A stretch of DNA of 64,000 nt, from the NCBI RefSeq assembly GCF_000723465.1, contig NZ_HF545616.1, forward strand, positions 372,001 to 436,000, written 5' to 3'. Position 1 is the stretch's first letter, and every line of letters starts with the position of its first letter. This document shows positions 4,100 through 28,070 of the stretch, one piece after another. A model generated the notes under the pieces. It did no database searches. It worked only from the letters and a program-made list of their open reading frames with translations, and was not told the origin of the DNA. This DNA is from Ruminococcus bicirculans (ex Wegman et al. 2014) (lineage in GTDB: Bacteria > Bacillota > Clostridia > Oscillospirales > Ruminococcaceae). The translations under genes and the position numbers were made by a program.

Positions 4100-4777
4100 T
4101 TATTTTGTAGGATTAACCGAATTTGCCATTTCAATTATGTCATTTTTGCACAAATCTCCGTTTATGGAATATACATAATTTCCATCATTCCAAACAATGA
4201 TAGATGAGTTGTCATCATAGGATAAAAACGCTTCACAGCCTGATACGGTAACATATTCTGTTTTCCTATTTTCAGTATCAATATTATGGGTTGCCGTTAA
4301 TGGACTTTGAGAATAAAAAATGATTTTATTTTTGAAACGATAATCAATGCCTAAATGTGCAATATCCTTAATTCTGCTTTCTTCTACAAATCCTTTTGGA
4401 ATAAACGTCGGCTCATAATAGATAAATTCATCGTTCATATCATCTGCGGGAATAGCTCCTTGAACAGCATGCACATCAGCGTTATTTTCATTTTGCGAGA
4501 CAAACAAACCTACGAACCATTCTCTTAACTGTGGAACAGCGGCAACTGTAATTGTACTCATCATTAAAACTGCCGCTATAATAAAAATAGTCTTCCTCAG
4601 AGTTGTTTTTATCAAAGGATAATACGGTCTGCTTCTGTCCTTTATCAGCCTGTTTACTTTCTTTTTGTAAGTCTCTGAAAAATCACATTCGACATCTGCG
4701 ATAGATTCCATTTCTCCTGCACACGGCAGTATTACCGCTTGTTCGATAGCTCTATACAATGCTGTATTTTCATTCAC
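4100..4777 (-). CDS. Anti-sigma-like membrane protein with DUF4367-type C-terminal domain
   Basis: A single-pass membrane protein: a cytoplasmic N-terminal part with acidic and basic patches (to about residue 55), one hydrophobic segment (IIAAVLMMSTITVAAV), then an extracellular beta-rich domain whose end (SGCEAFLSYD, IIVWNDGNYVYSINGDL) resembles DUF4367. I chose GTG at 4777, because GAGGTGAT precedes it at the right distance and it overlaps the sigma-factor stop by 8 bp. An in-frame ATG at 4801 would lie deeper inside the sigma gene. Linkage to an ECF sigma factor makes a sigma-restraining sensor the likely role. Confidence 0.72.
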   Translation of the reverse strand: MNENTALYRAIEQAVILPCAGEMESIADVECDFSETYKKKVNRLIKDRSRPYYPLIKTTLRKTIFIIAAVLMMSTITVAAVPQLREWFVGLFVSQNENNADVHAVQGAIPADDMNDEFIYYEPTFIPKGFVEESRIKDIAHLGIDYRFKNKIIFYSQSPLTATHNIDTENRKTEYVTVSGCEAFLSYDDNSSIIVWNDGNYVYSINGDLCKNDIIEMANSVNPTK

Positions 4778-5303
4778 TAATATCACCTCGTAATTTTTCA
4801 AACAAAATCTGTTCAGCCTTTCTCAGATATTTATATACAGCGTTCCGTGAAACTCCCATAAGTTTGGCGGTTTCATCGGCATTGTGTCCGTAATAATAAA
4901 AATATGTAATTGCGACTTTGTATTTTTCTTCCAGTTCGCTGATTGCCTTAGATAAATCGGCAACATTATAATCGTTAAATTCATCGGCGGAAGGAATATC
5001 TCTCATTTCTTCATGAATGTCATTGTAGAAATGCTTTTTTTCTTTGTTATAAAGTCTATAAGAAGCGTTTCTAATAGTTATAATCAAGTAAGCTTCCATT
5101 TTGTACACGGGTAAATTGTGAATTTTATGAAAATTATCGGCTATTCTATAAAATGTTTCCCATACAGCTTCTTCCGCTAATTCATGTGATCTTAAAATCT
5201 TAAACGACTCGGTATATAGCTTTTTTTCAAACTTTTTTACTAGTTGTTCAAAACTTTTTTTATCTTCATCATCGTTTATCAATGCCAGACAAATGGCTAA
5301 CAT
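4770..5303 (-). CDS. ECF-type RNA polymerase sigma factor
   Basis: A 177-residue sigma-70 family protein. Region 2 covers about residues 18-90 (HELAEEAVWETFYRI, aromatic-rich helix). Region 4 is at about 125-172 with the helix-turn-helix HNADETAKLMGVSRNAVYKYL. There is no region 1 or 3, as expected for an extracytoplasmic-function sigma. AAAGGGGTGAT precedes the ATG. It is translationally coupled to the membrane protein downstream, the classic sigma/anti-sigma pair. Likely targets are the secreted-protein and ABC genes that follow on the same strand. Confidence 0.85.
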   Translation of the reverse strand: MLAICLALINDDEDKKSFEQLVKKFEKKLYTESFKILRSHELAEEAVWETFYRIADNFHKIHNLPVYKMEAYLIITIRNASYRLYNKEKKHFYNDIHEEMRDIPSADEFNDYNVADLSKAISELEEKYKVAITYFYYYGHNADETAKLMGVSRNAVYKYLRKAEQILFEKLRGDISE

Positions 5304-5328
5304 AATATCACCCCTTTAACTTCATTTG

Positions 5329-6000
5329 TTAGTATATAACAAGTATATCACTAAAAGTTAAATATTTCAAGCGTAAAGATACAGAAAACTCAGACTTAGC
5401 CACATGTAAATTCTTCAGCCAATCGGAATACTCATAACGGGTAATATCCTTGCCCTGCTTGCAGGTGCGCCTATCGTCAGCCTGACCCGATCGTCCTTTC
5501 CTTGGAGGTTCCATGCCACATAACCTGTACAAACTCGCAGAGCTTAACTGTTGTTCAAATTCATCGTTTGTAAATTCCGGTGAGGTCATAGCGGAATGGT
5601 AAAGTTTCTCTGATTTAGCCAAAAGTGTTCGCTTCTCGGCATTTTTCTCTTTGGGCTTTTTCTTGGCAAAATCCATCTGATTGCACGTTCTGTTTGGATT
5701 TTCAGGCGAAGGCATATCGCAGTATTTTGTCTTATAGCCGCCGTTCACAATAAAAAATCTGTTGCAGTTCAGACACCTGCGTATCTGATGCCCGACCATA
5801 AGACCTTTGAAAAAATCAACTTTCAGAAGCGATTGCAGTCGCTTGGCGTGGTAATATTCGGCAATAAGATACTCTCCGCTGCCCTCTGCCTTCTCTCTCG
5901 GAACAAGGTTCATATCGAGATTGTCGGTAAGATCATAGCTCATCCATGGGTCATTGATTGGATTGGCTATTTTCTTGTACGAAAGGCGAAGCACCACGAG
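5329..6000 (-). pseudogene. Remnant of a DUF6076-family gene
   Basis: The minus-strand frame encodes a cysteine pattern CLNC..KTKYC..PNRTC. It is the same zinc-ribbon-like motif as in the intact 383-residue DUF6076 protein at 16884-18035, followed by a similar charged helical stretch. The N-terminal half is missing: upstream of about 6000 the frame runs antisense through a recombinase remnant. The last 50 or so residues do not resemble the intact copy. I read it as a truncated, decayed relative left by an older mobile element. The open frame reaches 6054, but the first 15-20 codons are probably not native. Confidence 0.6.
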
Positions 6001-6006
6001 GAGTAG

Positions 6007-6180
6007 TATTCCGTTGACACCAAGAAGTTCACAGAGGGCAGATTTCGTTTGCATGAGCTTACCCGTGAGATGTGCCTGGAGCTGATCGAGTATATCACCC
6101 TTGATGCCTATGTGGAGGGGCAGCCTCGTGAAATCTACATCTACTACAAGCTGCTCGACGAACCTCTGAAAGATAAAAGA
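6007..6180 (+). pseudogene. C-terminal remnant of a large serine recombinase
   Basis: The plus-strand frame reads KKFTEGR..LHELTREMCLELIEYI..REIYIYYKLL, which matches the layout of the C-terminal tail of large serine recombinases: a short helix, an ELI..I core and a final beta strand IYYK. No upstream catalytic domain is present; there is a stop in frame at 6004, and after about 6180 the frame becomes unrelated. It overlaps the broken DUF6076 gene only at their junction. Confidence 0.5.
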
Positions 6181-6705: not shown

Positions 6706-7638
6706 TTATGACAGTTCAGAAAGTGATCTCATCACAAGGTCAATATCCTTGCTTTCGAGCTCTTGTATGATATGTAAATACGTTTTCTGTGTTGTTGTCA
6801 TGCTTGCGTGACCAAGTCGTCTTGCTACACTTGCGATTGAAACGCCCGCAAAAAGTAAAAGCGAGGCGTGGGTATGACGAAGTCCGTGTACCGAAATAAC
6901 AGGTACATTAGCTTTTTTACAGTGTCTTTCCAAAATGTCATTGACTGTTGAATTGTATATTTTCGAGCCGCATTTGACAAATATCGGTTCGTCTCCGGGC
7001 AACTTCTTAACCAATCTAGAGAACTGAATTACCGTCATCCAGTCCATCTGTATCTTACGTACGGATGACTGATTTTTGGTAGGCAGAAAACCGCCGTCAC
7101 CTTTATAATTCCATGTCTTGCTGACAGATAGTGTCTGACGCGGAAAATCAAAATCTTTGGGAGTAAGTGCAAGCGCTTCCGAAAAACGCATTCCTGTCTT
7201 GGCAACAAGAAGAATAAACCAGTCCCAATTAATTTCAGGCTCAAGATTAAGAGTGTTAAGCAGTGTATGCAATTCAAACTGATTAAGGTACTTTACCTTC
7301 TTTGCTTTGGGCGGTCTGCCTTTAATAATTACTTTGCGCGTCGGATCACGCTCGATTAAACCCTCATCCACCGCGTCAAGTATTGCACATTTCAGCTGAT
7401 GATGAAAATCCATCGTAGTCTGTTTCTCGTGGTAAACCGCATAATCATTTATCAACTGCTGATATGTGATTCTCGAGAGTTCATGCACCTTTAAATCGGG
7501 TGCTAAACGCTTAAGCCAGGACTGCGTCATAAGATACTTGTCCATCGTGACCTTGCGTATTGCTCCCTCCTTGTAAACTCTTATCCACTGTGCATAATAT
7601 TCATGGAATAAGGCGTCCTTGGTGATTGACTTTAACAT
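6706..7638 (-). CDS. Tyrosine recombinase of the hsdS inversion locus
   Basis: A 310-residue phage-integrase-family recombinase with a SAM-like N-terminal DNA-binding part (about 1-125) and a catalytic domain. Visible active-site elements are Arg in GMRFSEALAL, HGLRHTHAS, LGHASMTTT and the tyrosine in KTYLHI. AGGAGG precedes the ATG. It is clearly diverged from the two 424-residue integrases further right and lies 60 bp from the first hsdS cassette, pointing away from it. Recombinases beside multiple hsdS cassettes are known to invert them (for example in Streptococcus and Bacteroides), so cassette shuffling is the likely job. Confidence 0.85.
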   Translation of the reverse strand: MLKSITKDALFHEYYAQWIRVYKEGAIRKVTMDKYLMTQSWLKRLAPDLKVHELSRITYQQLINDYAVYHEKQTTMDFHHQLKCAILDAVDEGLIERDPTRKVIIKGRPPKAKKVKYLNQFELHTLLNTLNLEPEINWDWFILLVAKTGMRFSEALALTPKDFDFPRQTLSVSKTWNYKGDGGFLPTKNQSSVRKIQMDWMTVIQFSRLVKKLPGDEPIFVKCGSKIYNSTVNDILERHCKKANVPVISVHGLRHTHASLLLFAGVSIASVARRLGHASMTTTQKTYLHIIQELESKDIDLVMRSLSELS

Positions 7639-7698: not shown

Positions 7699-8271
7699 AT
7701 AATTGCAAACAAATTTACTGACGCTTGGGAACAGCGTAAGTTCTCGGAATTGACTGAAATTAGGTCTGCTTCAAGAGTTCATAAAGAAGAATGGCAGTCA
7801 AGCGGAGTACCATTTTATAGGTCAAGTGATGTTATGGCTGCATTAAATGGAACAGAAAATGAAAAGGCATTTATCTCAGAAGAACTATATGAAAAACTGT
7901 CAGCCGTATCCGGTAAATTAGAAAAGGGAGATATACTTGTAACTGGCGGTGGTTCTGTTGGAAAGCCTTATATAGTGCCAAATAACGAGCCTTTATATAC
8001 AAAAGATGCTGACTTATTATGGGTAAAAAACAATGAGAAATTAGTTCCGTATTTTATTTATACGTTCTTCTTTTCACCTGCTTTTTCAGATTATCTTAAT
8101 AGTGTCTCTCATGTTGGAACAATCGCACATTATACAATTACTCAACTTGAAGAAACTCCGATAACGCTCCCTTGTGTATCAGAGCAACAGAAAATCGGAG
8201 ACTATTTCCGCAACATCGACTCCCTTATCACCCTTCATCAGCGTAAGCAAAAAAACAGGAGCCAAGAATGA
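7699..8271 (+). pseudogene. Silent hsdS target-recognition cassette (copy of active hsdS)
   Basis: The frame opens after a TGA at 7696 and encodes NKFTDAWEQRK, one target-recognition domain and the conserved QQKIGDYF..HQRK helix. It has no start codon or ribosome site. Bases 7724-8248 match 14788-15312 of the active hsdS with no difference I can find. It then diverges and stops at 8271. FTDAWEQRK is the usual sequence between TRD1 and TRD2 or at the N-terminus of HsdS, so the cassette is bounded by the two conserved regions. It is a stored, unexpressed specificity module. Confidence 0.82.
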
Positions 8272-8282
8272 ATCTTGACTCC
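8250..8282 (-). terminator. Rho-independent terminator of hsdR
   Basis: On the minus strand GGAGTCAAGA pairs with TCTTGGCTCC around a 5-nt loop and is followed by TG and seven T. It lies 20 bp past the hsdR stop. Confidence 0.65.
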
Positions 8283-8302
8283 ATACGGCTCACATTATGT
8301 TA

Positions 8303-11300
8303 TTATTCATTAGTTGAAATTTCAAAGCCGCCGCTCAGGATGAACTCTCTTAAAAGTTTATCCAGCTTTGAGCGAACCTTTCGCTTGGGGATTTCGGTTT
8401 TCTCTGCTTTCTCGAAATATTCTTTTGCCACATCAATATTAACCTGCTCAACAAGCTTATCATATCTACCGAAAGCATTTATATCCTCTTCCGTAACGTG
8501 CAATGACATGAACTTCTTCAAAGCAGTTTCGTTAATGCCCAGGTTTCTTGCAAAATTACAGAACTGGTCACTTTTTGCTCTTGACTGATATTCGGTGATG
8601 TAATCAAGAATTGTTTTGTCATCATCAATAACAAGCTCAGCATTCTGAATATCCTTCAAAAGAATGTTGGCATACTTCTGCTGATCTTGCGATAGGTTGG
8701 CAAATGATTTATGCAGCTCGTTTAACATGACATTTCGTGTTTGTTCATCAGTGCCGTCACCCATCATCTTGATATACTTTCTGAAACGGGAATTCATATA
8801 TTCGGCATCAATTTTATCCGTAGAAAGCGACATCAGATAAGGTTCAATATCATACGGCTCATCGTCGGAACCGCCCGATCCACCCGTGCGCAGCTCTTTG
8901 TAACGCCTCAGAAGAATGTTATAAATGTTCTCATCAAATAAAAGCGTTACAATGTCCTTGTTTCCGTTATCGTCTTCAAATTCATAGTCACGTTTCTCCC
9001 AAACAAAGCCCTGAACCCTTGCCGATTCAAGGAATTTGTTGAGCTCCTTAAACAGTTTTGAAAACTTTCTTTTCTCCGTCACATCATCGGGAAGTCTTGA
9101 AAAAATCAGGGATTCCTGCAATCTTGAATATATCATTGATATCCGAAAAAGCAGCATTCATATTTTCAAGATTTTGTATGAGCTTTGCTACGAAAATGCC
9201 GTAAGGCTTTTGTCCCGAATATTGCTCGAAAGCATATTCTATAATATTTTTCATAGTGTATGGTCTGCGATAGTAACGAATGATTCCATGGGGCTTATCA
9301 TCATTGAACACACGGTTTGTTCTCGAAAATGCCTGAATAATCATTTCGATATTTGACCACTTATAAAACTTATCCATATACAACGTGTTAAGCCACTTGG
9401 AATCGTAACCCGTAAGCATCTGATCTACAACAATGAGAATGTCAAGACACTTAGACGGCTCATTTTCTACAGCGGTATAGGGTGTTTTATGTGCCAATCT
9501 TGCACACACGTCACGCTTAAATGAGGCGTATCCCGAGATATTAAAGCACGTACCGAATAGACTGTTATAGTCTTCGAGCATCTGGGCTATACCATCAATT
9601 TTTTCGATAGAGCTTTCGTTGTTTCCATCGCTGGGATCAAAAACGGCAGTTGTTTTCAAACCGCAGTCACGCTGGGCAAACAATTTGTAATACTTGATTG
9701 CCTCGGGGATGCTGCTTGTTGCGAGTATTGCATGAAACTTTCCGTTGTGGCTCTGGCTCACCCAATTATCTAGAATATCATCAATTACTGCTTTTCTGTG
9801 TTCATCACGGTTATACTGTGCATCTGTAAGACATCCCTCGATACTTTCTAGCGAATCGCCGTCATCATCAAGCTGTTCTCCCATAGGTACGTCATACATC
9901 CAATGCATATAAATTTTTTTCTTGCTGTCATTGGCAAAGACTTCGGTTTCATCCTGTGCTTTTGCCTTTTCAAGTGCAACCGCTTTTCGCAGGTCTTTGT
10001 CTTTATATGTAGGCTGAGGAACGCTGTCAAATCCGAGGACATTGCCGTCACGCATACCGTCGGCAACCGTATACCTTGTGCCCTCAAGTTCATCGCCGAA
10101 TACATCAGCTGTGGTGGAATCCTTTTTCTTGTTGATTTCAAGAATCGGAGTGCCCGAAAAACCTATGAAAATCGCGCGTGGGAATGTGTATTTTATAGAT
10201 GAAAGCATACGGCCGAATACACTTCTGTGGCACTCGTCAACGATGAAAACAATACGCTTGTTATTAATTTTTTCAATATCATCATTGTTTATTCCGTCTT
10301 CTGCCTTGATACGGCTCATTTTCTGAATAGAGGTTACAATCAGAGTGTCGCCTACATTATCACTTTTCAGCTTGGAAATCAGCACTTCAGTATTTTCAGT
10401 TGACTGAACGTCATCTGTTTCATCGGCAAAACCTCTGTATTCACGCAGCGACTGCATTCCAAGTTCAATTCTGTCCATAAGGAAAACTACCTTGTCGGCA
10501 TCCTTGGAATTTGCAATAAGCTGTGCGGATTTGAAACTTGTCATGGTCTTACCCGAACCGGTTGTGTGCCATACATAACCGCCGTAAATGCTTTTATCGT
10601 CCCACTTCATCTCACTGACACGACGGGAAATCTTACTTGCAGCATAATACTGATAGCTTCTCATAACTTTAAGTGTGTTGTCGGTCTGATCTGCAACCGT
10701 ATAGAAACCTATCATCTCGTGCGCCATAGGAATTGACAAAAGCCGCTCGGCAATCATATTCCAATCATTAATCGGATTGTTATATTTATCTGCCCAATGA
10801 AAGCAGAAAGTTTTTCTGAACTTATCATCACTTCCTGGGTTGGCAAAATAGGTACATTCTTCGGGATTCATTGCAACAAACACCTGCACAAGTGAAAACA
10901 GCCCCGTAAACACACCTTCGTAGAGATATTTACGAATCTGATACTGTGCTTCACTGACAGGTACGTTGCTTTTTTTCAGTTCAACGTGAATGACAGGCAT
11001 TCCGTTAATCAGCAGACAGAAATCGCCGCGGCGATTGGGATAAATGCTGTTCTTCGCCTTGAATTTCGGCTGCTGTGCAATCTGATAACGAGTTCTGCCT
11101 GCGGCTATTTCATTGCGGTCAAAGATTTTGAGCGATATCGTCTTCTTGAAATTGTGCGTGTCATTTTCGTTGTCACGGATAATCTGCACAGTTCCGCCAT
11201 TAATAAATCCGTTTAGATTCAAAGGCGTGCGAAGCTTGGCTATCTGCCCCATAATCTGTGCCATTTCACCATCTGTCATCGGGAAATCGCCCAAACGGTC

Positions 11301-11453
11301 AATATCTCTGTTGTTTTCAAAGATGATTTTTGCCCAGTTATCAAGCAAATCTTTTTCGGTAGGATATTTTATTACGCCGTCTTTCCAGCCCTTTTCTTCC
11401 ACAAGACATTTTATCAAGGCACTTTCAAACGCTGTCTCACTGTCAAATCCCAT
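8303..11453 (-). pseudogene. hsdR: Type I restriction endonuclease subunit R, one frameshift
   Basis: ATG at 11453 (GGAGTGA site) opens a 789-codon frame with the HSDR_N nuclease region (D in RRGDFCLL, then ELKK), Walker A in TTGSGKT at about residues 296-303 and a DECH box, a superfamily 2 translocase. It stops early at 9084. The next frame (8303-9157) continues with the normal C-terminal helical domain. The join is a run of six T (six A at 9100-9105 on the plus strand); five would restore one frame of about 1050 residues. With the frameshift the product lacks the domain that docks on HsdM/HsdS. Whether this is a true mutation, slippage or a sequencing error is open. Confidence 0.85.
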
Positions 11454-11554
11454 TAGTAGTCACTCCCTTATGCAGCATAATTACTGCTTTTCTTTTTTAT
11501 TTTCTATCATGCGATCAATATTGTCGTATGCATCTTCAATTTAATCGATTTTCC

Positions 11555-12135
11555 TTACACAAACATCTTTTCAAGGCAAGATTTTTTGATATTTTTAAGT
11601 TTTTCAAGCTTACGCTGATGAAGGGTGATAAGGGAGTCGAGATGAGAGAAATAAGCTCCGATTTTCTTCTGTTCAGCAAGACTTGGAACAGATAATGCAA
11701 AATTAGCATACTCCTGAGCATTGACACCAGGCTGTCCGGAACGCTGAGAAGTGATACGAATATAGCTATCATAACTGTCTGTCAAAGTATTCTGAAACAC
11801 AAAATCCGCATCATAATCGCTTTTGATTTTTGCTCGGATAAGGAAGCCTGCAAAATACAAATCACCGTCAGAACGGCGATAAATATAGGTTTTTCCTACA
11901 CTCGCTCCGGTTCTTGCAAATAGAACATCGCCCTCTTGCAGTAAATAATCATCTGCGGTTGAAAAGTCTATGTCGGGTGATGTGAGATCATCTTGCAAGA
12001 ATAGATGTGTCGAATCATCTATGTCTGTAATTCGTATATATTTATGCTTGCCGTCATATTCAGTGGCGGCAGCGTTTAGACCATATTCAAATGATTCTGA
12101 AATCTCGCCCAACTTACGCTGTTCCCAAGCGTCAG
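11555..12135 (-). pseudogene. hsdS: hsdS cassette with second target-recognition domain and native C-terminus
   Basis: The minus-strand frame encodes LADAWEQRKLGE, a target-recognition domain unlike the one in the other two cassettes, the conserved QKKIGAYFSHLDSLITLHQ region and a normal HsdS end (KKSCLEKMFV). It has no start codon at its left border. Its flanks are inverted copies of those of the plus-strand cassettes: 12111-12135 matches 7718-7742 (25 bp), and 11600-11640 matches 15280-15320 (41 bp). It lies 102 bp upstream of hsdR on the same strand, where an expressed hsdS would be expected. Inversion of the hsdM segment would supply the missing N-terminus. Confidence 0.82.
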
Positions 12136-12187
12136 CTAATAAGCACGGCTATAAAAACACTTAAAAATATATATTTAGGAGGAAACT

Positions 12188-14734
12188 ATGAATAAACAGC
12201 AACTTGCAAACAAAATATGGGAGTAAGCAAATAAAATGCGCTCCAAAATTGAGGCGAATGAGTACAAGGACTATATTCTTGGCTTTATTTTTTATAAATT
12301 TCTTTCCGATAAGGAAGTTGAGTATCTGAAAAAGAATGACTGGGAAGATGCAGATCTGTCCGAACTCGTTGAGGAAGATACCGACATTGTCGAACAGTGC
12401 AAGAAGAATATAGGCTATTTTATTTCATATGAAAATCTTTTTTCAACTTGGCTGAAAAAAGGCAAAGATTTCGATGTTTCCAACATTACAGATGCATTAT
12501 CGGCGTTTGACCGTCTGATTGACAGCACTCACAGAAAAGTTTTTGACAAGATTTTTGATACTTTGCAGACCGGACTTTCTAAACTAGGTGAGACAAGCGG
12601 TGCAAGAACAAAGGCAATCAGTGACTTGCTTGGACTGATAAAGGATATCCCGATGGATGAAAGACAGGGATATGACGTGCTTGGTTTCATCTATGAGTAT
12701 CTGATTTCCAATTTTGCAGCGAACGCAGGAAAAAAGGCAGGCGAATTCTATACTCCGCACGAGGTGTCGCTGCTTATGTCCGAAATCGTTGCAAATCACC
12801 TTAAAAGCAAGGAAAATATTGCTATATATGACCCAACCTCCGGTTCAGGCTCACTCCTTATAAATATTGGACGCAGTGCCGCAAAATATATGGATAGCGA
12901 GCAGGTTCAGTATTATGCGCAGGAGTTGAAAGAGAATACATACAACTTGACAAGAATGAATCTCGTAATGCGCGGAATTACACCGGCAAACATCTTTACA
13001 AGAAATGCGGACACCCTTGAAGATGACTGGCCGATTGATTTGGACAGCTATCCGCCTGTACTGCGTGTTGACGCCGTTGTTTCAAATCCGCCATACTCTC
13101 AGCCGTGGAATCCCGAAGGAAAGGACTCCGATCCTAGATATAGTGAATACGGTCTTGCACCAAAGAGCAAGGCGGACTATGCGTTTTTACTGCATGATTT
13201 GTATCATATCAAACCCGATGGAATTATGACAATTGTTCTGCCACATGGCGTTCTGTTCCGTGGCGGTGAGTAAGGTGAAATCCGTAAGAACCTTATCGAG
13301 AAGAACCAGATCGACACAATTATCGGACTCCCTGCAAATATATTCTTTGGAACGGGTATACCGACAATCATTATGGTTCTGAAGCAACAGCGTGGCGACT
13401 GCAACGACGTTCTGATTATTGACGCATCAAAAGGCTTTGAAAAGATTGGAAAGAACAACAAACTGCGTTCATCTGATATTAAGCGTATTGTTGATACCGT
13501 AAGTGCACGCAAGAATGTGGACAAGTTTTCAAGGACTGTCAGCCGTGAAGAAATCAGAAAAAATGATTATAACCTGAACATCCCACGTTATGTGGATTCT
13601 TCCGAGAATGCTGAAAGCTGGGATATTTATGCGTCTATGTTCGGTGGAATTCCTGCCAAAGAGCTTGATGGACTTTCGACTTATTGGAATGCTTTTCCGA
13701 ACCTGAGAAGTGCGCTGTTTGGTGATAACGGTGCGGAGTATGTCCACTTTTCTGTAGAGGACATAAAAAAGGCTGTACACGAACATTCCGATGTAACCGG
13801 CTTTGCAAGCTTGTTTGAAACAGCTTTTGCAGATCTTGATACTTATCTTTATGATGAACTGATCGGCTGTGACCAGACCGCAATTAACACATCTAAGGAA
13901 GAAAGCACTCTTTCTGACAATATTTTTGCAAGACTTGCTGACATTCCTCTAGTGGACGTTTATGAGGCTTACCAGATACTTGATAACGAGTGGAGCAGAA
14001 TCGCAATTGACCTTGAAATCATTCAGACAGAGGGATTTGGTGCTGCAAGACAGGTCGATCCCAATATGGTTATCAAGAGGAAAGACAATAAAGAAATCGA
14101 AGTTCAGGAAGGCTGGATAGGACACGTTATTCCGTTCGGTCTTGTTCAGTCTGCGTATTTTTTCGATGAACTTTCAAAGCTGAATGAATATGAAACAAGG
14201 CTCTCCAAAATTGCATCCGAATATGAGAAACTGCTTGACGGACTTAGCGAAGAGGACAAGTCAAGGGCTTTCGTAAATGATGACAAAACTGCTTTTGTTG
14301 CGGCGGAGGTTAAAAAGTCAATAAAGGTGAGAGATGTTGAAGACGAGATCATTGCTGTACTCAAGAAATATACCGATCTTGCCAAAGAGGAAAAGACTTT
14401 GAAAAAGCAAATCAAGGAAGACAATGCGGCTTTGATTATAAAAACAAAGGCGGCGATCGAACAGCTGACCGACGAGCAGATCAGAGAATTCCTGAAAGCA
14501 AAATGGATCACCCCTGTTGTGACCGAGCTTTTTAAGCTACCCGTTAATATTGTAAACGAGTTGATTTCAAAGCTTGAGGTGCTTTCCAAGAAATATGAAA
14601 CCACTTTTGAAGAGGTTGACGAAGAAATCAAAGAGACCGAAAAATCACTTTGTACAATGATTGACGATTTAGTCGGCAACGATTTTGATATGCAAGGTCT
14701 GGCAGAACTGAAAAAACTGCTGGGAGGTGTGTAA
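12188..14734 (+). pseudogene. hsdM: Type I DNA methyltransferase subunit M with two in-frame stops
   Basis: ATG at 12188 begins NKQQLANKIW; TAA at 12224-12226 (codon 13) interrupts it, then NKMRSKIEANEYKDYILGF continues in the same frame. The AdoMet motif I (DPTSGSGSLL) and catalytic NPPY follow. A second TAA at 13271-13273 (codon 362) falls just after FRGGE, where Glu (GAA) is expected. The frame then stays open to 14734, including the C-terminal helical region that contacts HsdS. Full length would be 848 residues. Both changes are single substitutions, not frameshifts. As read, only fragments 12236-13270 and 13373-14734 could be made. Confidence 0.87.
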
Positions 14735-14735
14735 A

Positions 14736-15347
14736 ATGACGAAAAAATCGAACGTTCCAGCAATAAGATTCAAGGATTTCACTGATACTTGGGAACAGCG
14801 TAAGTTCTCGGAATTGACTGAAATTAGGTCTGCTTCAAGAGTTCATAAAGAAGAATGGCAGTCAAGCGGAGTACCATTTTATAGGTCAAGTGATGTTATG
14901 GCTGCATTAAATGGAACAGAAAATGAAAAGGCATTTATCTCAGAAGAACTATATGAAAAACTGTCAGCCGTATCCGGTAAATTAGAAAAGGGAGATATAC
15001 TTGTAACTGGCGGTGGTTCTGTTGGAAAGCCTTATATAGTGCCAAATAACGAGCCTTTATATACAAAAGATGCTGACTTATTATGGGTAAAAAACAATGA
15101 GAAATTAGTTCCGTATTTTATTTATACGTTCTTCTTTTCACCTGCTTTTTCAGATTATCTTAATAGTGTCTCTCATGTTGGAACAATCGCACATTATACA
15201 ATTACTCAACTTGAAGAAACTCCGATAACGCTCCCTTGTGTATCAGAGCAACAGAAAATCGGAGACTATTTCCGCAACATCGACTCCCTTATCACCCTTC
15301 ATCAGCGTAAGCTTGAAAAAGTCATTTTTGCATTCATTTCATTGTAG
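14736..15347 (+). CDS. hsdS: Type I RM specificity subunit, single-TRD form at the expression site
   Basis: ATG at 14736 follows the hsdM stop by one base and GGGAGGTG. The 203 residues comprise a conserved start (IRFKDFTDTWEQRKF), one target-recognition domain (about 30-165) and the central helix (QQKIGDYF..LITLHQRKLEK), ending in a short unrelated tail VIFAFISL. A normal HsdS has two TRDs and about 400 residues. Single-TRD forms can dimerise in known systems, but here the native C-terminal end lies on the inverted cassette at 11555-12135. Bases 14788-15312 are repeated at 7724-8248. The expression state looks like one arm of an inversion switch. Confidence 0.82.
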   Translation: MTKKSNVPAIRFKDFTDTWEQRKFSELTEIRSASRVHKEEWQSSGVPFYRSSDVMAALNGTENEKAFISEELYEKLSAVSGKLEKGDILVTGGGSVGKPYIVPNNEPLYTKDADLLWVKNNEKLVPYFIYTFFFSPAFSDYLNSVSHVGTIAHYTITQLEETPITLPCVSEQQKIGDYFRNIDSLITLHQRKLEKVIFAFISL

Positions 15348-16149: not shown

Positions 16150-16887
16150 TCAGTCAATATACTCTTTCAACTTTTTCAGAGCCGACTTAACGCCCTTTTC
16201 CACCGTGCCGGCGTTAACGCAGAACTCCTCCCCAATTTGTTCAAAGGTCTGCGGAGCGCACCCGATGCCAAAATACATTCGGATATATTCCGCTTGCCGA
16301 TGACTTAGAATGTCGTCCAGACTGTCCGCCAACAGCATGGCAAAAGCCTGATTTTCCTGCTCCAGCATTAGATCTTCGGGATTCAGACAATCGGACCTAA
16401 GCTTATCTTCAAGCTTGTCATCCTGCATACCCTCACCACTTTCAAGCATTGATTGGTACTCATCAATGCTTGTTTTCTCTTTTGTGCTTAAAATCAGCAA
16501 CTCCTCGGATTTGTCCGCTGATATTTTGAGTATTTGACTTACGATTTCAATAAGTTCGGATGTGTTGCTTTCGGCATTGGCTGAAACGATTTTCCTCACC
16601 TTTCCTATCTGCTTGTTCAAATAAGGCGAAATACTCACCGTATCGAGAATAAAGCGGAGTTCTTCGAGCATTTTCAACTTAACACCCTTACAGGCATATG
16701 TCCAAAAAGGCACACCGCTGTTCTCGTCAAAGGTCTTCGACTGCTCAATCAGTGAAATGTAGCCGACCTTCTGCAAGTCCTCAAAAGCCTCAAATGCAAG
16801 ATTGTATGATTTTGCAAGAGAATGTGCAAGTGCGTATACGTTGCGGTAATTATCCTGAATCAGCTGTTCATTTGTGTTCTTGGTCAT
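16150..16887 (-). CDS. Sigma-70 family factor encoded on mobile element
   Basis: A 245-residue protein with a sigma region 2 (about 20-80: FEDLQKVGYISLIEQSK..FWTYA) and a region 4 helix-turn-helix at the end (TFEQIGEEFCVNAGTVEKGV). These are joined by a longer linker than in ECF sigmas. Its ATG overlaps the TGA of the DUF6076 gene (ATGA), with GGGGGAG as ribosome site. The coupling implies the two work together. It may direct transcription of element genes or act as a sigma-like regulator; its target promoters are unknown. Confidence 0.78.
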   Translation of the reverse strand: MTKNTNEQLIQDNYRNVYALAHSLAKSYNLAFEAFEDLQKVGYISLIEQSKTFDENSGVPFWTYACKGVKLKMLEELRFILDTVSISPYLNKQIGKVRKIVSANAESNTSELIEIVSQILKISADKSEELLILSTKEKTSIDEYQSMLESGEGMQDDKLEDKLRSDCLNPEDLMLEQENQAFAMLLADSLDDILSHRQAEYIRMYFGIGCAPQTFEQIGEEFCVNAGTVEKGVKSALKKLKEYID

Positions 16888-18035
16888 TGTTCTCCCCCGA
16901 TATTTAATGTCTTGTAAAGCGTGTCCTTTTCAAAAAGCTGTTCGAGCGTTTTGTACGTTATCAGATTTCCATTCTCGTCACTTTTGCCCCGAATTGCCTT
17001 GTCACGCATGGTTTCAAGGTAGTGCAGAATTTTGTCGTAATCCGCATCCGAAATACTTCCTCGGAATTTCTGCTGATAATATTTGTTCCTCGCCTTGTGG
17101 TAGGTCTGGATAATCGGATTGTTCTCAGCCTTTTCCTTGTGCTTGTTTTTCGCGCCAATCTGACGGCAGGTTCTGTTGGGATTTTCGGGAGACTTTTCAT
17201 TGCAGTAAAACGTTTTGTAGCTGTCAGTCGCAAGGAAAAAACGTCCGCAGTGGTGACAGCGAAAAGGCGCTCTGCCATACTGCATTCCTCTGAAAAAATC
17301 GTACTGAATAACGCTTTGCGCATTATGAAATTCGCAGGTATCAACCACCCATGTCTTGTCTTTATCATCGGGATCGATCATTCCCGAAACGCCGATATTT
17401 ACGTCCATGGTTTCACGAACTCTTGCCTTTTCATAGTACGGCACGCTCGCCATCAGCTCACTCGAAAGAGTGGAATATTCGTTAAACGCACCCCACGCAA
17501 TCGCATAGTTGCTTTCGTCACGTTTCTTAAGCCGTGTAAAATATTCATCTGACATTTCGGCTATACAGCAGGCAATTATGTAAAGCCCAATCCCGTACCC
17601 CGAAAACAACTTTTTGTACCTCTCATACTCCGCAAACTCCTCCGACGTCATATCATACAGCCTGCCGTAGAAAGCCTTGCTTTTCATTATTTCGGCACGC
17701 TGTTTTTCTTTTTCCAGGTCAATATTCACATAGCAGTACGGTGGTAAAGTCACCGCAATTTGTTCGATTTCGATTATGCGGTCAACAAATTCCGTCATAG
17801 TCTGCTCGTTTTTCATCGCCATATTATTATCTGCAAACCCCGCAAAAGAGACGGTTAAGTCATAAATCTTTTTCATATCCTCAGCTTTCATATTCAGCAG
17901 AGCCGTTGTGATTTCGCCAACCTTCAAAGCTATTTTTGTTGTGAAAATTCTATTCTTGTGAATAAGAAAATAGAAATTAAAAAAGCTGTCGTCGGGCATA
18001 TCGTAATTCGGATTGTTTGAAATTGCATTGTTCAT
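16884..18035 (-). CDS. DUF6076 family protein with CxxC zinc-ribbon-like motif
   Basis: A 383-residue soluble protein of unknown function. The N-terminal two thirds are mixed helical. A cluster CHHCGRFF...KTFYC...PNRTC at about 265-300 has the spacing of a metal-binding ribbon. A charged helical tail follows (KNKHKEKAENN). It overlaps the sigma-factor gene by 4 bp and is preceded by a long structured leader (18057-18122) with a TATAAT box upstream. A broken relative lies at 5329-6000. DNA or RNA binding is plausible from the ribbon and basic tail, but nothing here proves a function. Confidence 0.7.
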   Translation of the reverse strand: MNNAISNNPNYDMPDDSFFNFYFLIHKNRIFTTKIALKVGEITTALLNMKAEDMKKIYDLTVSFAGFADNNMAMKNEQTMTEFVDRIIEIEQIAVTLPPYCYVNIDLEKEKQRAEIMKSKAFYGRLYDMTSEEFAEYERYKKLFSGYGIGLYIIACCIAEMSDEYFTRLKKRDESNYAIAWGAFNEYSTLSSELMASVPYYEKARVRETMDVNIGVSGMIDPDDKDKTWVVDTCEFHNAQSVIQYDFFRGMQYGRAPFRCHHCGRFFLATDSYKTFYCNEKSPENPNRTCRQIGAKNKHKEKAENNPIIQTYHKARNKYYQQKFRGSISDADYDKILHYLETMRDKAIRGKSDENGNLITYKTLEQLFEKDTLYKTLNIGGEQ

Positions 18036-18604: not shown

Positions 18605-18625
18605 ATTAAAAAAGGAGTGATGCCA

Positions 18626-20443
18626 ATGTCAGAAATCATGACAGAAGGAAAAAAAGCAAAACTGATTGATGAAACAGTCTACAATGATCCCTACGTTGTT
18701 AAAAGCAATTGCCTTTATGAAATGGTTCAGGTGAAAGATCAGGTCGTTCCAATGAAACTTGCAGACTTTGTTCCCACACTTATTTCGGAAATCACCAGAG
18801 ATGACGGCACAGAGCAAAAGAAAATGTTCAAGGTCGGTGCGGTTCACAAGTCGGGAATTAAACTGTCGGAGCAGATTGTTTCCGCAGACGAAATGCAAAA
18901 CATGAAATGGCTCTTAAACCGCTGGGGTGCATTGGGTGCTGCACAGCCTAAGCAAAACGTGCTAAGTAAAATCTGCCACGCAATTATGTTAACGAAAGGT
19001 GAGGTGAAATTTGAAACTATGTATCTCCAAACTGGTTGGAAGAAGATAAACGGTGAGTATGTGTTCCTGATGCCGACGCAGAACAGTCCGTTTACCGTTG
19101 AACTGCAGGGCAAGCTGAAAAACTATTCTTTCACTGAAAAGGGTTCGCAGGAGGACTTGATTTACTTGTCTGCAATGCTTGAAAACAGTTTTGCACCGCA
19201 GTGTGTTATGCTACCGCTGCTGGCGGTAACGTTTCTGTGTCCGCTCAATCACTTTCTGAAAAGTGCAGGCTGTGAGCCAAAGTTTGTGACTGCGCTGATT
19301 GGTAAGACGGGTAGTCGTAAATCCACACTTGCAGCGCTGTTCCTTTCGTTCTTCGGAAAGTTTTCAGCAAGCGACCTACCGATGTCATTCCACGACACAG
19401 CGAATAGCATTTTGAGCAACATATACTATTTAAAAGACGTGTTGACTTGCATTGACGATTTTCATCCGAGCGGAATGTTTCACGAACAGGAGATGAAAAG
19501 CATTGCGCAGAATATTTCGCGATACTACGGTGATAGAATTGGTCGTGCGCGACTAAATTCAAAAGCGGAGTTACAATCTTCAAAACCGCCTACAGGCAAT
19601 GCAATTATCACAGCGGAGTACACTCCTGAAATTTCCGTGTCGGGTTCGGCGAGATACTTCAATATTGAACTTAATGAAAACGATGTTCAGCTTGATGACC
19701 TGTCAGAATATCAGCAGTTAGCAAATGACGGAGTGCTGTGTGGGATTATGCAAAGCTACATTGAGTGGATTAAAAATGTGTATCTTGATGATGAAAGTGC
19801 TTTTGTAAAAACACTCGAAGATGTGTTTTTGAAATACCGCAAGTTTTATCTGGACAGGCTGTGTGCAAACAGAATTAAGTTTCACAACCGCACACCCGAC
19901 ATGCTTGCACACTTGAAAATCGGGTTTGCATTTCTGCTTGTGTTTCTTAAATCGAAAAATCAAATCAACAAGTCGGAGCTTGATAAATTTGAAAAGGTGT
20001 TCGACGAGATCGTTTTGAAAGCTGTGTCTGCAAACGCAGAAATCATCGAGCTTGAAAATCCGACCACTCGCTTCTGTGAGAAGCTGAAAAGTCTGCTGGA
20101 CAGCGGCAGGTGCTATGTAGAAACAAAAGGGCTTGACTCCACGCCCCGTCAGAGAAACTGCATCGGCTTGCAGGACGATGAGCACTACTACCTGTTCGCA
20201 GACACAACACACTCCGAGGTGCGAAAGCTGTGCGCCGAGCAGGGCGAGCATTTTTCTATTAGCAAAAATGAGCTACTCCGTCAGCTTCGTAAAGAGGGCT
20301 TGCTGCTGTCAAGGACAAGCCGCAACACGGTCTCGGTCAGGGATAACTCCAACACAGTAGTGAATGTGGCGATGCTGAATAAGCTAAAGATGGAAGAACG
20401 GCTATCGGGCGATTTGTACCGCCCCACAGCCGAGGTCGGATAG
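18626..20443 (+). CDS. DUF927-like P-loop ATPase (replication-type helicase/primase partner)
   Basis: About 605 residues. ATG at 18626 is best spaced from AAAGGAG; GTG 18617 and ATG 18620 are alternatives. Walker A (GKTGSRKST) is near residue 228, with a Walker B-like LTCIDDFHPSG about 45 residues later, in an RecA/AAA-like core. A wing-like C-terminal domain follows (LLRQLRKEGLL, RNTVSVRD). Such DUF927/DUF3987-type proteins sit on integrative elements and plasmids and are presumed to act in replication. It leads the rightward genes of element A (excisionase, integrase). Confidence 0.65.
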   Translation: MSEIMTEGKKAKLIDETVYNDPYVVKSNCLYEMVQVKDQVVPMKLADFVPTLISEITRDDGTEQKKMFKVGAVHKSGIKLSEQIVSADEMQNMKWLLNRWGALGAAQPKQNVLSKICHAIMLTKGEVKFETMYLQTGWKKINGEYVFLMPTQNSPFTVELQGKLKNYSFTEKGSQEDLIYLSAMLENSFAPQCVMLPLLAVTFLCPLNHFLKSAGCEPKFVTALIGKTGSRKSTLAALFLSFFGKFSASDLPMSFHDTANSILSNIYYLKDVLTCIDDFHPSGMFHEQEMKSIAQNISRYYGDRIGRARLNSKAELQSSKPPTGNAIITAEYTPEISVSGSARYFNIELNENDVQLDDLSEYQQLANDGVLCGIMQSYIEWIKNVYLDDESAFVKTLEDVFLKYRKFYLDRLCANRIKFHNRTPDMLAHLKIGFAFLLVFLKSKNQINKSELDKFEKVFDEIVLKAVSANAEIIELENPTTRFCEKLKSLLDSGRCYVETKGLDSTPRQRNCIGLQDDEHYYLFADTTHSEVRKLCAEQGEHFSISKNELLRQLRKEGLLLSRTSRNTVSVRDNSNTVVNVAMLNKLKMEERLSGDLYRPTAEVG

Positions 20444-20919
20444 TTTAACCAACGAGCCAACAAAACGCCGCTGTGAGCGATTTGTCGGCGTTTGTGAGCG
20501 AGGTACAGCAAGATATTTTTTGCAGAAGGAAGATGAGAAAAATGGAGTAAAATCGGCTGTCGGCATATTGCACGGGCCGGGTAAATTCCAAGCGGTTATG
20601 ACGTAGAGGAATAAGATTGCAAGTTAAAGTTTCGGGGTCACAGCCCCCGAAACACTCACAGCGGACGAGCAAAGCTCGCCGCAAAAGTGCCGAAAATACG
20701 CAGTTTCAGCAAAATGATTGTGCATAATTTTTATGGGGTCATAAATTTGAGCTTTGAATGATTCAGGGGTCGCAAGGGCTGAAAAGTGCGTAAAATCGGC
20801 GTGATTACAGGCGTTGTCGATGACGTCTAAGAGAATATCAGGAAAGGACTGTTTAAAATGATCGGAAGAAAAATCAAAGGCAGAACAATCGGAAAGACAA
20901 CAAGGAGGGGGATAACAGA
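20444..20919. other. 476-bp gap with strong hairpins, possible origin or transfer region of element A
   Basis: No convincing gene is present. TTTCGGGG pairs with CCCCGAAA at about 20628-20652, and CGAGC with GCTCG at 20665-20678. The hairpins are followed by AT-rich DNA and the ribosome site of the excisionase gene. Hairpin clusters next to xis-int modules are often replication or transfer sites, but no relaxase remains in element A, so this is only a possibility. Confidence 0.35.
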
Positions 20920-21105
20920 ATGGATAACAACACAAAGATCACAATGCTTACAATCAAGGAGGCGGCAGCGCTTGTCGAAGGACTGACAGAGTATAGAGTC
21001 CGCCAGATGTGTATCAACAATCAGATCCCACACATCATGGCAGGAAAAAAGTATCTCATCAATCGGGATAAGTTTTTGAGTTATCTCCGTGGCGAAACTG
21101 TGTGA
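20920..21105 (+). CDS. Excisionase-type helix-turn-helix protein
   Basis: A 61-residue protein reading LTIKEAAALVEGLTEYRVRQ followed by a short basic strand and MAGKKYLINRDKF: the MerR/HTH_17-like fold of excisionases. AAGGAGGGG precedes the ATG. It lies 120 bp upstream of integrase A, as usual for an xis-int module. It is related in layout to the 97-residue protein at 35194-35487 beside integrase B. Confidence 0.78.
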   Translation: MDNNTKITMLTIKEAAALVEGLTEYRVRQMCINNQIPHIMAGKKYLINRDKFLSYLRGETV

Positions 21106-21140
21106 GAAATTTTGTTGATTAGGTAGAATTTAATAACGAA

Positions 21141-21202
21141 GGCGCATTTCTGTTAGACATTTCCGCAGAGATGTAGTATAATGTCGGTTGCAGAAATGCG
21201 CC
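21141..21202 (+). promoter_or_regulatory. Promoter enclosed in a 12-bp inverted repeat, upstream of integrase A
   Basis: GGCGCATTTCTG (21141-21152) and CAGAAATGCGCC (21191-21202) are perfect inverted copies. The 38 bp between them hold TAGACA (21154-21159), a 17-bp spacer and TATAAT (21177-21182), pointing at the integrase 46 bp away. Because transcription would start inside the loop, only the right arm is transcribed, so the repeat is not simply an RNA hairpin of this promoter. Confidence 0.65.
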
Positions 21203-21227
21203 ATAGTTTTGAAACGGAGGTTTATAT

Positions 21228-22502
21228 ATGGCGACAATAAGACGGCGTCCCAACGGGACTTACGAAATTAAAGTGTCATGCGGTTACGGCGTGGACGGAA
21301 AGCAGCGCAACCAGTACAAAAGCTACAAGCCTGAACCGGGTATGACGAAAAGGCAGATAGAAAAGGAGATGCAAAGGCAGGCTATACTGTTCGAAGAAGA
21401 CTGCAAGCGTGGACAGATAACTGCGGCAGTAAAGTTTGAAACATTTGCTGAGCAGTGGTTTGAGGAATATGCAAAAGTCAATCTTCGCCCTACATCATAC
21501 GCACGAATGAAACAGCTTACCAAGCGGGTATATCCTGCGATCGGTCACAAGCGGCTTGATAAAATAACAGCGCGTGACATCCAAAAGTTTATAACCGATA
21601 TGCTTACCAACGGCAGGAATTTGAATAACGGCAAGCCTCTGTCAAGAAAGACCGCAGTGCATCATCTAAGCTTCATAAGCGACGTATTCAGCTACGCTGT
21701 ACGTATGGGAATGCTGTGCGACAACCCTTGCAGGCGAGTATTCGTGCCGAAACAAGAGCAGGAGGAAAAGCAGATCTACACGATCGAGCAAGTAAAGATA
21801 CTTTATGAAAATCTGAAAAGCGAGCCTATGAAATATCAGGCGTACCTGCTTCTATCGATATACAGCGGTTATCGTCGCAGCGAGATGTTAGGACTCGAGT
21901 GGAAGGATATTGACTTTGAGCATGATCTGATACACGTTCGTCGCACCTCGCAGTACACTTCGGAAAAAGGGATATACACCGACACCACCAAGACAAGAAA
22001 ATCAAAACGTGTATCCAAAATGCCTGCTTCGATAATGAACTTGCTCCGGCAGTTCAAAGCAGATCAGAATGAAGAAGCAAGGCGGCTTGGAACGAAATGG
22101 GAAGATTACGACAGGCTGTTCACCAAATGGAACGGCGCGCCCATGAATCCGCAGACTCCTTTTGAGTGGCTAAAAGGCTACTGCGAGCGAATAGGAATAC
22201 CGTTTAGAAATATTCATTCTCTACGTCACTTGCACGCCTCACTTCTGATTTTTGAGGGCGTGGATGTTGTAGCGGTATCAGAAGATATGGGTCATAGCGT
22301 CGTCGGAACGACTTTGAACTTGTACAGTCATATGTTCCAAGAGGCTAAAGCAAGAAACTGCGATGCGATAAGCAATGCGCTGAGCTTCACAAACGAGGCA
22401 AACACAGAGGAAGAAAAGCCTGCCAAGGATAGCTATGAAGATATATATGTAAATGAGGACGAGCAAGAGGAAGAACAACTCGGACAAGTTTTTGGGACAT
22501 AA
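21228..22502 (+). CDS. Tyrosine site-specific integrase A
   Basis: A 424-residue integrase with an N-terminal arm-binding domain (AP2-like, about 1-60), a SAM-like core-binding domain (about 65-170) and a catalytic domain with Arg in SGYRRSEMLGL, HSLRHLHAS, GHSVVGTT and the tyrosine in LNLYSHM. It ends in an acidic tail. It is a close paralogue of integrase B (35700-36971). The DNA of the two is identical from 21444 to 21517, suggesting recent exchange. Its stop is 155 bp from the tRNA-Glu-derived repeat at 22657, its presumed attachment site. Confidence 0.92.
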   Translation: MATIRRRPNGTYEIKVSCGYGVDGKQRNQYKSYKPEPGMTKRQIEKEMQRQAILFEEDCKRGQITAAVKFETFAEQWFEEYAKVNLRPTSYARMKQLTKRVYPAIGHKRLDKITARDIQKFITDMLTNGRNLNNGKPLSRKTAVHHLSFISDVFSYAVRMGMLCDNPCRRVFVPKQEQEEKQIYTIEQVKILYENLKSEPMKYQAYLLLSIYSGYRRSEMLGLEWKDIDFEHDLIHVRRTSQYTSEKGIYTDTTKTRKSKRVSKMPASIMNLLRQFKADQNEEARRLGTKWEDYDRLFTKWNGAPMNPQTPFEWLKGYCERIGIPFRNIHSLRHLHASLLIFEGVDVVAVSEDMGHSVVGTTLNLYSHMFQEAKARNCDAISNALSFTNEANTEEEKPAKDSYEDIYVNEDEQEEEQLGQVFGT

Positions 22503-23377: not shown

Positions 23378-24886
23378 TTATGAAAGTAATTTTCTTATCG
23401 ATTCCACAAATTTTGTAGGTTTTTCATATTCGTAAATATCATTTGACAAATACTTAATAAAGTCTGATTCTGATATACCAATTCTATCCAAATTAGCGCA
23501 TATGACCGAATAGAAATTTTTTCCGTCTTTGTCATTTGAAGATGACGTTCTATCATCATTTAAATAGTCTTTGATTATATCACTTAGCGAACGCTGATTG
23601 AAATACTTATCACCTAACAATTTTATGAAATTTTTATCTGGTGTATCAACTAACTTGGATTTTAGGTATTTCTCTACACTTGGAATGGGTAAAAAACACT
23701 TAGGCAATTGTTTATATTCTTCTTGCTTGGCTATATTTCCTTTCACATCTCCGTCAAAAATACTGATAATATGTTTCCCAACTCCTAAAGTATTGTATGT
23801 TACCATATCGTGGTGTAATTTCAACATTTGATTACAACCTCCAGAAGGAAGAATACATATTAATTTACTTGATGCAAGATTGTTTTCACGAATAACTTTG
23901 TCTACAATAGCTTTAGCCAATTCGTCTTCAACTAATAACAGGAAATCAAAACCATTTGGAATATAAAGACTCCTTATTGCATAATTTGGATAGCAAGGAT
24001 TGATAATTTCAATAGTCTTAGTGTCGTTTTCTAATAAATATATATTTCGAGGAGCTATTCTGTGAATAAGTTCTGCAGAATGCGTTGAAAAATATACTAT
24101 TATTTCAGAATCCGAATTTTTTATTAAATCCGATAAAAAGATGTGAAGTCTATCAATAGCAGCAGGATGTAAAGCTAATTCAACTTCATCAATTAATAAT
24201 AATATTCGATCATAAGTATGCCTCTTTATGATGTTATTAATAAAATCTATCAATGATATTAGCATACTTTCGCCACTACTCATTTGATATTGGCTAATAA
24301 GTTTATTGTTTATTGTTCTTTCAATTTCATAAAAATATGGAATGCCAATAAAGCCTTCTTCTTTTGCAACTCTTTTAGATTTAATCTTTTTAAGTTTTTT
24401 ATACCATTTTTTATCATTATGAAGAATATAACCTAAAGTTTCAGCAACAAAAGTATCTGCTTCAATTAGTTTTTCATGAATATCTGCTTTACCAATAAAT
24501 TTTGTAACTTTATTATAATCAAAAAAACGTGTTCCATAAAAAATGCTACCTTCATAAAAGCCATTAAAACGAACATCTTGATTATAATAATATGAGCCGT
24601 CTTTACGTTTTACCTTTTTGCCAGTAGAAAGCTTATTATTCTTATCTGGTGTCCACCTATCAATTTTATCTCCGATAGAAATCTCAACATATGAATTTGG
24701 AGAAAGATCTTTAGATGTAATCATTTTCGCAGAAGAAGGCTTAATTACCAGAGATAATAGTAACATAAGTGTACTCTTACCACATCCGTTTTCTCCAACA
24801 AGAGCATACATACCTTTTTCAAATGGTAACGAAACATTCAAACTATTAATGTTTCTAATATCGCATATCCGTATATTTAGATTCAT
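23378..24886 (-). CDS. ABC-type ATPase fused to TOPRIM domain (OLD/PARIS-like defence protein)
   Basis: 502 residues. The N-terminal SMC/RecF-like ATPase has Walker A GENGCGKST at 31-39, the signature YQMSSGES, Walker B ILLLIDEVELALHP and the switch H in YFSTHSAEL. The last 160 residues have a TOPRIM layout: acidic start LLLVEDELAKAIV, a SGGC turn and DGD, followed by helices. OLD nucleases, Gabija GajA and fused PARIS AriA/AriB share this order. No GajB-type helicase or separate DUF4435 gene is adjacent, so a single-protein system is likely. Its AT-rich DNA differs from the surrounding genes, suggesting cargo from another source. Confidence 0.75.
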   Translation of the reverse strand: MNLNIRICDIRNINSLNVSLPFEKGMYALVGENGCGKSTLMLLLSLVIKPSSAKMITSKDLSPNSYVEISIGDKIDRWTPDKNNKLSTGKKVKRKDGSYYYNQDVRFNGFYEGSIFYGTRFFDYNKVTKFIGKADIHEKLIEADTFVAETLGYILHNDKKWYKKLKKIKSKRVAKEEGFIGIPYFYEIERTINNKLISQYQMSSGESMLISLIDFINNIIKRHTYDRILLLIDEVELALHPAAIDRLHIFLSDLIKNSDSEIIVYFSTHSAELIHRIAPRNIYLLENDTKTIEIINPCYPNYAIRSLYIPNGFDFLLLVEDELAKAIVDKVIRENNLASSKLICILPSGGCNQMLKLHHDMVTYNTLGVGKHIISIFDGDVKGNIAKQEEYKQLPKCFLPIPSVEKYLKSKLVDTPDKNFIKLLGDKYFNQRSLSDIIKDYLNDDRTSSSNDKDGKNFYSVICANLDRIGISESDFIKYLSNDIYEYEKPTKFVESIRKLLS

Positions 24887-24937
24887 AATTATTCCTTTGG
24901 TATGATATTAGCATAGTCCAAACTGCTGACTACAGTG

Positions 24938-24966
24938 GTGACAGGCTATGCTTATTTTGATATAAT
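24938..24966 (+). promoter_or_regulatory. Predicted promoter of the IS110 bridge RNA
   Basis: GTGACA (24938-24943), a 17-bp spacer and TATAAT (24961-24966) lie immediately before the structured non-coding region. In IS110-family elements such a promoter can be completed by flanking or circle-junction DNA; the -35 part here may come from the insertion site. Confidence 0.6.
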
Positions 24967-25100: not shown

Positions 25101-25165
25101 CCAAAATGAATTTTAATAAGCTCCTGAGCGGAAACATTACAAAATATCAGAAAGAAGGATTTATC

Positions 25166-26356: not shown

Positions 26357-26571
26357 TTGTAGTCTCAGGTACATACTCATCGGGCGTTTGAATACTTCCT
26401 TCAAACGTCAGCTTTGCTATATCGTTTTTTCCTTTGCTTCTTTTCTCAACTTTGTTCATTTTGCCTATTGATTTTTCTTAGCAGGTTTCTGCTAAATAAT
26501 TATATTCTTTATGTACTTTATTTATGAGATGCAACTCATATTCAAATCGCTTTTAGCTTTATCGTAATCTT

Positions 26572-28062: not shown

Positions 28063-28070
28063 AATACCTC

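Follow-up and report, generated by a model that had tools for sequence, protein, structure and literature searches.

A type I restriction-modification locus of Ruminococcus bicirculans, probably of the inverting kind, with hsdM on the predicted invertible segment and a decayed operon

Inverting type I restriction-modification (RM) systems change their target sequence with the nuclease gene staying in place. Such loci, with a tyrosine recombinase linked to them, are well known from published accounts (PMC4948785, PMC7096588, PMC6265443). We analysed a window of 64,000 nucleotides from the gut bacterium Ruminococcus bicirculans, positions 372001-436000 of contig 1 (NZ_HF545616.1; 2,240,877 bases) in a genome of 2,968,500 bases and two contigs. 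All coordinates below are counted from the first base of this window. It contains a type I RM locus with three hsdS cassettes. In our judgement this is probably an inverting locus of the PsrA/HvsR kind in a variant layout, with hsdM on the invertible segment and with an operon that has decayed in this strain.

The pneumococcal cod/SpnIII locus (Spn556II) with PsrA is, in its published outlines, similar in several respects (PMC4948785, PMC7096588). Both loci are type I RM loci with an inverted extra hsdS and a linked tyrosine recombinase, and in both short inverted repeats lie inside hsdS (IR1 of cod has 15 bp). However, cod/SpnIII begins with hsdR and hsdM and inverts among three hsdS genes downstream of them. 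Here hsdM is inside the inverted segment, each hsdS has a single target recognition domain (TRD), and hsdM contains stop codons; the likeness is one of layout, not of PsrA sequence. The hsd1/hsd2 loci of Mycoplasma pulmonis with HvsR likewise combine a tyrosine recombinase with hsdS inversions, and some of their rearrangements are described as abolishing RM activity (PMC4948785, PMC5149525). The pneumococcal tvr locus (SpnIV) shares half-hsdS cassettes, short repeats and a linked tyrosine recombinase with the present one. It is reported with direct repeats, circular intermediates and toxin-antitoxin homologues, whereas the pairs around hsdM here are inverted (PMC6265443).

A REBASE survey reports inverting type I loci in multiple Ruminococcus species, and the available portions of it do not describe an hsdM inversion (PMC7394358). 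The excerpts of the literature on inverting type I loci contained no such description either, which is weak evidence. We file hsdM on the invertible segment, in a decayed copy, as what is new with respect to known inverting type I RM systems. In Mycoplasma pulmonis the RM genes lie between opposed hsdS genes, and an inversion carrying RM genes may already be known. In cod, hsdM and hsdR are both outside the invertible segment, which is not so in our locus; given M. pulmonis, we do not regard that position as defining.

From left to right, the locus consists of the recombinase (minus strand), cassette C (plus), hsdR (minus), cassette B (minus), hsdM (plus) and cassette A (plus). The hsdM gene (12188-14734, plus strand) matches N6_Mtase and HsdM_N. 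Cassette A (14736-15347, plus strand; Methylase_S, E 1e-18) is a half-hsdS of 203 aa with a start codon and TRD A. Its chain runs on for 11 residues after QRK and ends in 8 foreign ones (VIFAFISL). Cassette B (11555-12112, minus strand; Methylase_S, E 1.4e-11) lies 5' of hsdR. It carries TRD B and the native HsdS C-terminus, ending in ...LEKLKNIKKSCLEKMFV, and a conventional hsdS start is absent. Cassette C (7714-8271, plus strand; Methylase_S, E 4.5e-18) is a silent copy of TRD A, with no conventional start and a short foreign tail. Each cassette has one Methylase_S domain, and the only start codon among them is that of cassette A beside hsdM. A search of the whole genome with cassette A (E 0.001) returned no HsdS units other than A, B and C. 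An earlier sequence-only reading had proposed three cassettes with matched borders, one with the native end and no start, another with a start and a foreign tail. Our analysis agrees on all these points.

Every cassette is bounded by one exact N-site and one exact C-site. The N-site, TTGGGAACAGCGTAAG, encodes WEQRK and opens each TRD; the C-site, CTTATCACCCTTCATCAGCGTAAG, encodes LITLHQRK and closes it. The string CAGCGTAAG is common to both, in the same frame. N-sites are at 14789-14804 (plus strand, cassette A), 12113-12128 (minus, cassette B, 59 nt ahead of the hsdM ATG) and 7725-7740 (plus, cassette C). The C-sites, searched as 23 nt, are at 15289-15311 (plus, A), 11609-11631 (minus, B) and 8225-8247 (plus, C). 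Inverted repeats thus sit within hsdS, at the TRD borders. The C-sites of B and A lie inside the 41-bp copies that the earlier reading had named (11600-11640 and 15280-15320), and each copy is the exact reverse complement of the other. In the N-side pair, 12111-12135 and 14782-14806, the two arms show 92% complementarity over 25 nt and share an exact core of 16 nt; the earlier reading had begun the right arm at about 14788.

In the whole genome (2.97 Mb) there are three exact N-sites and three exact 19-nt C-site cores, all at the RM locus. Allowing up to two mismatches, the N-site had four matches, the three exact ones and one with two mismatches elsewhere (reversed-pattern control, one), and the C-site core had three (control, none). 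These counts, set against their controls, rule out chance repeats.

We surveyed the sites in relatives of the recombinase. The best 80 of 451 in genome_contigs, with 74-82% identity, were kept, and the locus counts given here rest on those; together with the window they comprise 1,119,440 bases. Of 134 N-like matches (up to two mismatches), 128 were within 60 nt of an expected cassette edge; for C-like matches (up to three mismatches) the figure was 117 of 138. Many of the unplaced C-like matches were at a locus edge or just 5' of the recombinase start. Among 164 cassette matches, 111 had both sites, 21 only the N-site, 17 only the C-site and 15 neither. The codons of these motifs were compared with the hsdM, hsdR and recombinase frames of the relatives and, for CGT, also with the rest of HsdS. 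In 103 WEQRK motifs from 52 loci, arginine was CGT in 94 (background 24%; rest of HsdS 23%) and glutamate was GAA in all 103 (69%). The 77 LITLHQRK motifs came from 42 loci; their second leucine was CTT in all 77 (22%), threonine was ACC in 71 (21%) and arginine was CGT in 73 (24%). Both sites are kept at the DNA level, beyond what the protein needs. Protein constraint as the sole cause of the repeat identity is ruled out by this codon test, and the constancy of the DNA in relatives makes the two sites very probably recombination sites. In locus L019 (10963-11010) a C-site and an incomplete inverted one lie almost back to back; this is perhaps a recombination scar. In viral_contigs, the C-site matched seven stretches, and a TRD A probe had no matches.

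The orientation of hsdM sets this locus apart. It is antiparallel to hsdR only here, and parallel in 31/31 relatives that have both genes. The count covers the 31 of the 80 loci with an hsdM match longer than 900 nt, 30 of them with hsdR, plus the genome G003, added by hand; L085 and L088, where hsdM is fragmented, and other loci without a long hsdM match are left out. G003, of the same genus, has the order cassette (minus), hsdM (plus), two cassettes (plus), hsdR (plus), cassette (plus), recombinase (plus), cassette (minus), with an inverted N-site 60 bp ahead of hsdM. This is the predicted unflipped layout. An N-site flip of hsdM in it would give the order in our window.

In the window, hsdM lies between the inverted sites of A and B. 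We simulated both inversions. Inverting the C-site pair of A and B (a 3703-bp segment) puts hsdM-hsdS-hsdR on one strand, carrying TRD A in an hsdS of 209 aa. Inversion between their N-sites (2692 bp) gives the same order with TRD B and 208 aa. In both products hsdS is fused to the native end KNIKKSCLEKMFV and stops 101 nt before hsdR. The inversion geometry of the sequence-only reading is reproduced here, except that it had put this gap at 102 bp. The hsdR gene also lies between inverted sites, those of B and C, because cassette C is inverted relative to cassette B. We considered hsdR as the flipped gene and rejected it. It is parallel to the recombinase in 11 of 13 relatives, as it is here; these 13 are the relatives with GGEEG in HsdM where our locus has its second stop, and the two exceptions are L045 and L059. 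The orientation of hsdR to the recombinase is therefore the usual one, and hsdM is the odd one.

We propose the following mechanism. The linked tyrosine recombinase would join like sites, N with N and C with C. Each inversion around hsdM would then toggle the locus between a colinear hsdM-hsdS-hsdR and a split order. In the split order, hsdM would be with one half-hsdS of foreign end, and hsdR would be behind a startless cassette. The sequenced copy has the split order, as the earlier reading had also concluded; we infer that this order does not restrict. A change of TRD would take two inversions of different kind, N-N followed by C-C or the reverse. With hsdM between inverted cassettes, every TRD change would therefore pass through an order in which hsdR is detached from hsdM-hsdS.

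The split passage could be a useful break-before-make step or a mere by-product, depending on promoters. In the former case, in intact relatives like G003, restriction would be disconnected while the methylase adopts a new TRD, and reconnected later. We regard this as unlikely. It needs an hsdR that depends on a promoter on the hsdM side, and methylation by the half-HsdS in the split order. If true, it would ease self-restriction on switching. Flipping the methylase gene would couple a change of specificity to lost contact with the nuclease gene, and such a layout would be a simple answer to changing restriction specificity without cutting the cell's own DNA. The operon is probably dead in this strain, which lowers its direct interest. 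The conservation of the sites across many Bacillota and some other phyla is a handle for finding cassettes by DNA pattern alone.

Several features of the operon show decay. The hsdM frame is broken by TAA twice, at 12224 (residue 13) and at 13271 (residue 362); a second, independent count gave the same number. Residue 362 is glutamate in 32/32 aligned relatives, and the stops are not homopolymer-type changes. The hsdR gene (8303-11453, minus strand) is in two frames. Its first piece (11453-9084) has HSDR_N, SWI2_SNF2 and T1R_D3-like matches; its second (9157-8303) has EcoR124_C (PF12008, E 4e-26). Nine intact hsdR relatives align across both frames. The frame changes at a T6 run (9100-9105), and this frameshift could be a sequencing error. 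With respect to EcoR124-like systems, the EcoR124_C domain is present, the hsdM and hsdR frames are interrupted and a two-TRD HsdS is absent. A terminator-like hairpin 3' of hsdR (8258-8282, minus strand) comes from a pattern scan and is a consensus match, not functional evidence.

Every predicted hsdS (203, 208 or 209 aa) has one TRD in every simulated order, instead of the usual two. Some relatives, such as L023, L060, L079 and L087, also have a single TRD match after hsdM. One TRD need not be fatal, since half-S derivatives of EcoR124I and EcoDXXI are reported to work as dimers (PMC3874165). The truncated pneumococcal alleles A7-A9 are reported to give no methylation signal (PMC4948785). 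The two TAA codons, the hsdR frameshift and the single TRD per predicted hsdS had escaped the sequence-only reading, which held that the switch can rebuild hsdM-hsdS-hsdR. This is right for the gene order but not for a working enzyme: given these three defects, a flip by itself would not restore a functional canonical enzyme. With nonsense codons in hsdM and a probable frameshift in hsdR, the operon most probably stands for an enzyme that is dead or dying in this strain, while the recombinase and the cassettes remain intact.

The recombinase (6706-7638, minus strand; 310 aa, open frame) is a putative hsdS invertase. It matches Phage_integrase (E 3.5e-22), and its relatives sit at RM loci, in agreement with the dedicated tyrosine recombinase that the earlier reading had placed at the border. 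The NCBIfam search listed eight families for it, none above its cut-off. HsdS, HsdM or HsdR matches are found in 71 of the 80 loci, and such a match or a C-site in 78. The nearest loci are from Ruminococcus metagenome-assembled genomes; the 80 are mostly Bacillota, with Rodentibacter, Volucribacter, Succinivibrionaceae and Spirochaetales as well. In Listeria innocua a homologue (62%) is flanked by two hsdS genes, next to hsdM and hsdR, and in Mycoplasmopsis cynos another (61%) adjoins hsdS and hsdR.

One locus of the survey, L092 in genome G144 (9435-11470), has the recombinase and two head-to-head half-hsdS cassettes, with no HsdM or HsdR match in 19 kb. In the whole genome, N6_Mtase matched only twice, and weakly. 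It appears to be a cassette store left without its enzyme.

Some results weigh against an inverting locus with a flipped hsdM. A complete inverted cassette just 5' of hsdM is present in only 2 of the 32 relatives, G003 and L034 (225 bp ahead of hsdM in the latter). A scan of this window found no promoter-like pair in the 260 bp 5' of hsdM. The recombinase family is not tied exclusively to RM loci. The remaining two of the 80 loci, both about 3.6 kb long, have no RM gene or site, and around a Mesomycoplasma hyorhinis homologue (58%) none of the 13 features annotated within 12 kb is an RM gene. Homologues are also found in 44 phage records, 41 of them below 60% identity; by this measure the phage integrases appear to be more distant relatives. 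Finally, that this recombinase acts on these N- and C-sites is a step that we infer by analogy.

The scarcity of upstream cassettes is to be read with the length of the loci. Six of the 32 hsdM loci hold less than 400 nt upstream, and a cassette there could escape notice. L010 has a distant fragment of an inverted cassette upstream of hsdM. An order search added six further genomes with HsdM. Only one of them (L112, genome G288) has an inverted N-site before hsdM, 448 bp 5' of an open hsdM with a short helix-turn-helix (HTH)-like open reading frame between; in L113, L115, L116 and L118 the sites are on the hsdS side only or weak, and in L117 there are none. A scan of 391 genomes of the class for AGGAGG preceded at 25-55 nt by an inverted N-site matched only in this genome.

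The strongest alternative is a fixed relic, to which we give a little less than an even chance. One past inversion, site-specific or homologous, would have flipped hsdM, the operon would have been silenced, and its genes would now be decaying with no switching. Such a history agrees with the interrupted hsdM (two nonsense codons), the frameshifted hsdR and the single-TRD hsdS. The C-site that many relatives have just 5' of the recombinase was not found before it here, and L085 and L088 have a fragmented hsdM as well. However, the recombinase frame is open and all six sites are exact. Cassettes A and C also speak against a locus long at rest. They are in the same orientation and have no mismatch over 525 bp (14788-15312 and a copy 7064 bp leftward), and the identity ends at the sites (21/80 and 31/80 outside). 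The earlier reading was right on the shared borders of the third cassette; beyond that, it is a perfect copy of the expressed cassette, inverted relative to the minus-strand one. This identity suggests a recent exchange, by cassette copy or gene conversion, so that the machinery for recombination may have survived longer than the enzyme.

A tvr-like excision and reintegration seems to us improbable. In this reading cassettes travel as circles between direct sites, A and C are copies left by one such transfer, and inversion plays a secondary part. It would account for two identical cassettes in one orientation bounded exactly by the sites, and for CAGCGTAAG being shared by N- and C-sites in one frame, and it is described for pneumococcal tvr (PMC6265443). 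Nevertheless, RecA gene conversion among cassettes that are homologous already would leave the same picture, and hsdM antiparallel to hsdR is not explained by excision itself. Least probable by far is an artefact, with the hsdM segment wrongly oriented in the assembly or the stops false: the hsdR frameshift does fall in a homopolymer and a perfect 525-bp repeat can confuse short-read assembly, but the genome is in two contigs, ordinary reads would span the A/B inverted repeats, which are short (41 bp exact), neither hsdM stop is a homopolymer change, and a simple inversion in the G003 layout yields the observed order.

Other genes of the window surround the RM locus. On either side it is flanked by a sigma-70-like gene paired with a DUF6076 gene (4770-6054 and 16150-18035), all four on the minus strand. 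Further right (18617-22502 and 35700-37308) there are a DUF927 protein and two further tyrosine integrases, with tRNA genes for Glu and Met beside the second integrase; these regions suggest stacked integrative elements. A defence-like group at 23378-31523 comprises an OLD/PtuA-like ATPase, a PDC-S60-like protein with a weak DUF4062 match, an N6 methylase of 840 aa and an HTH protein.

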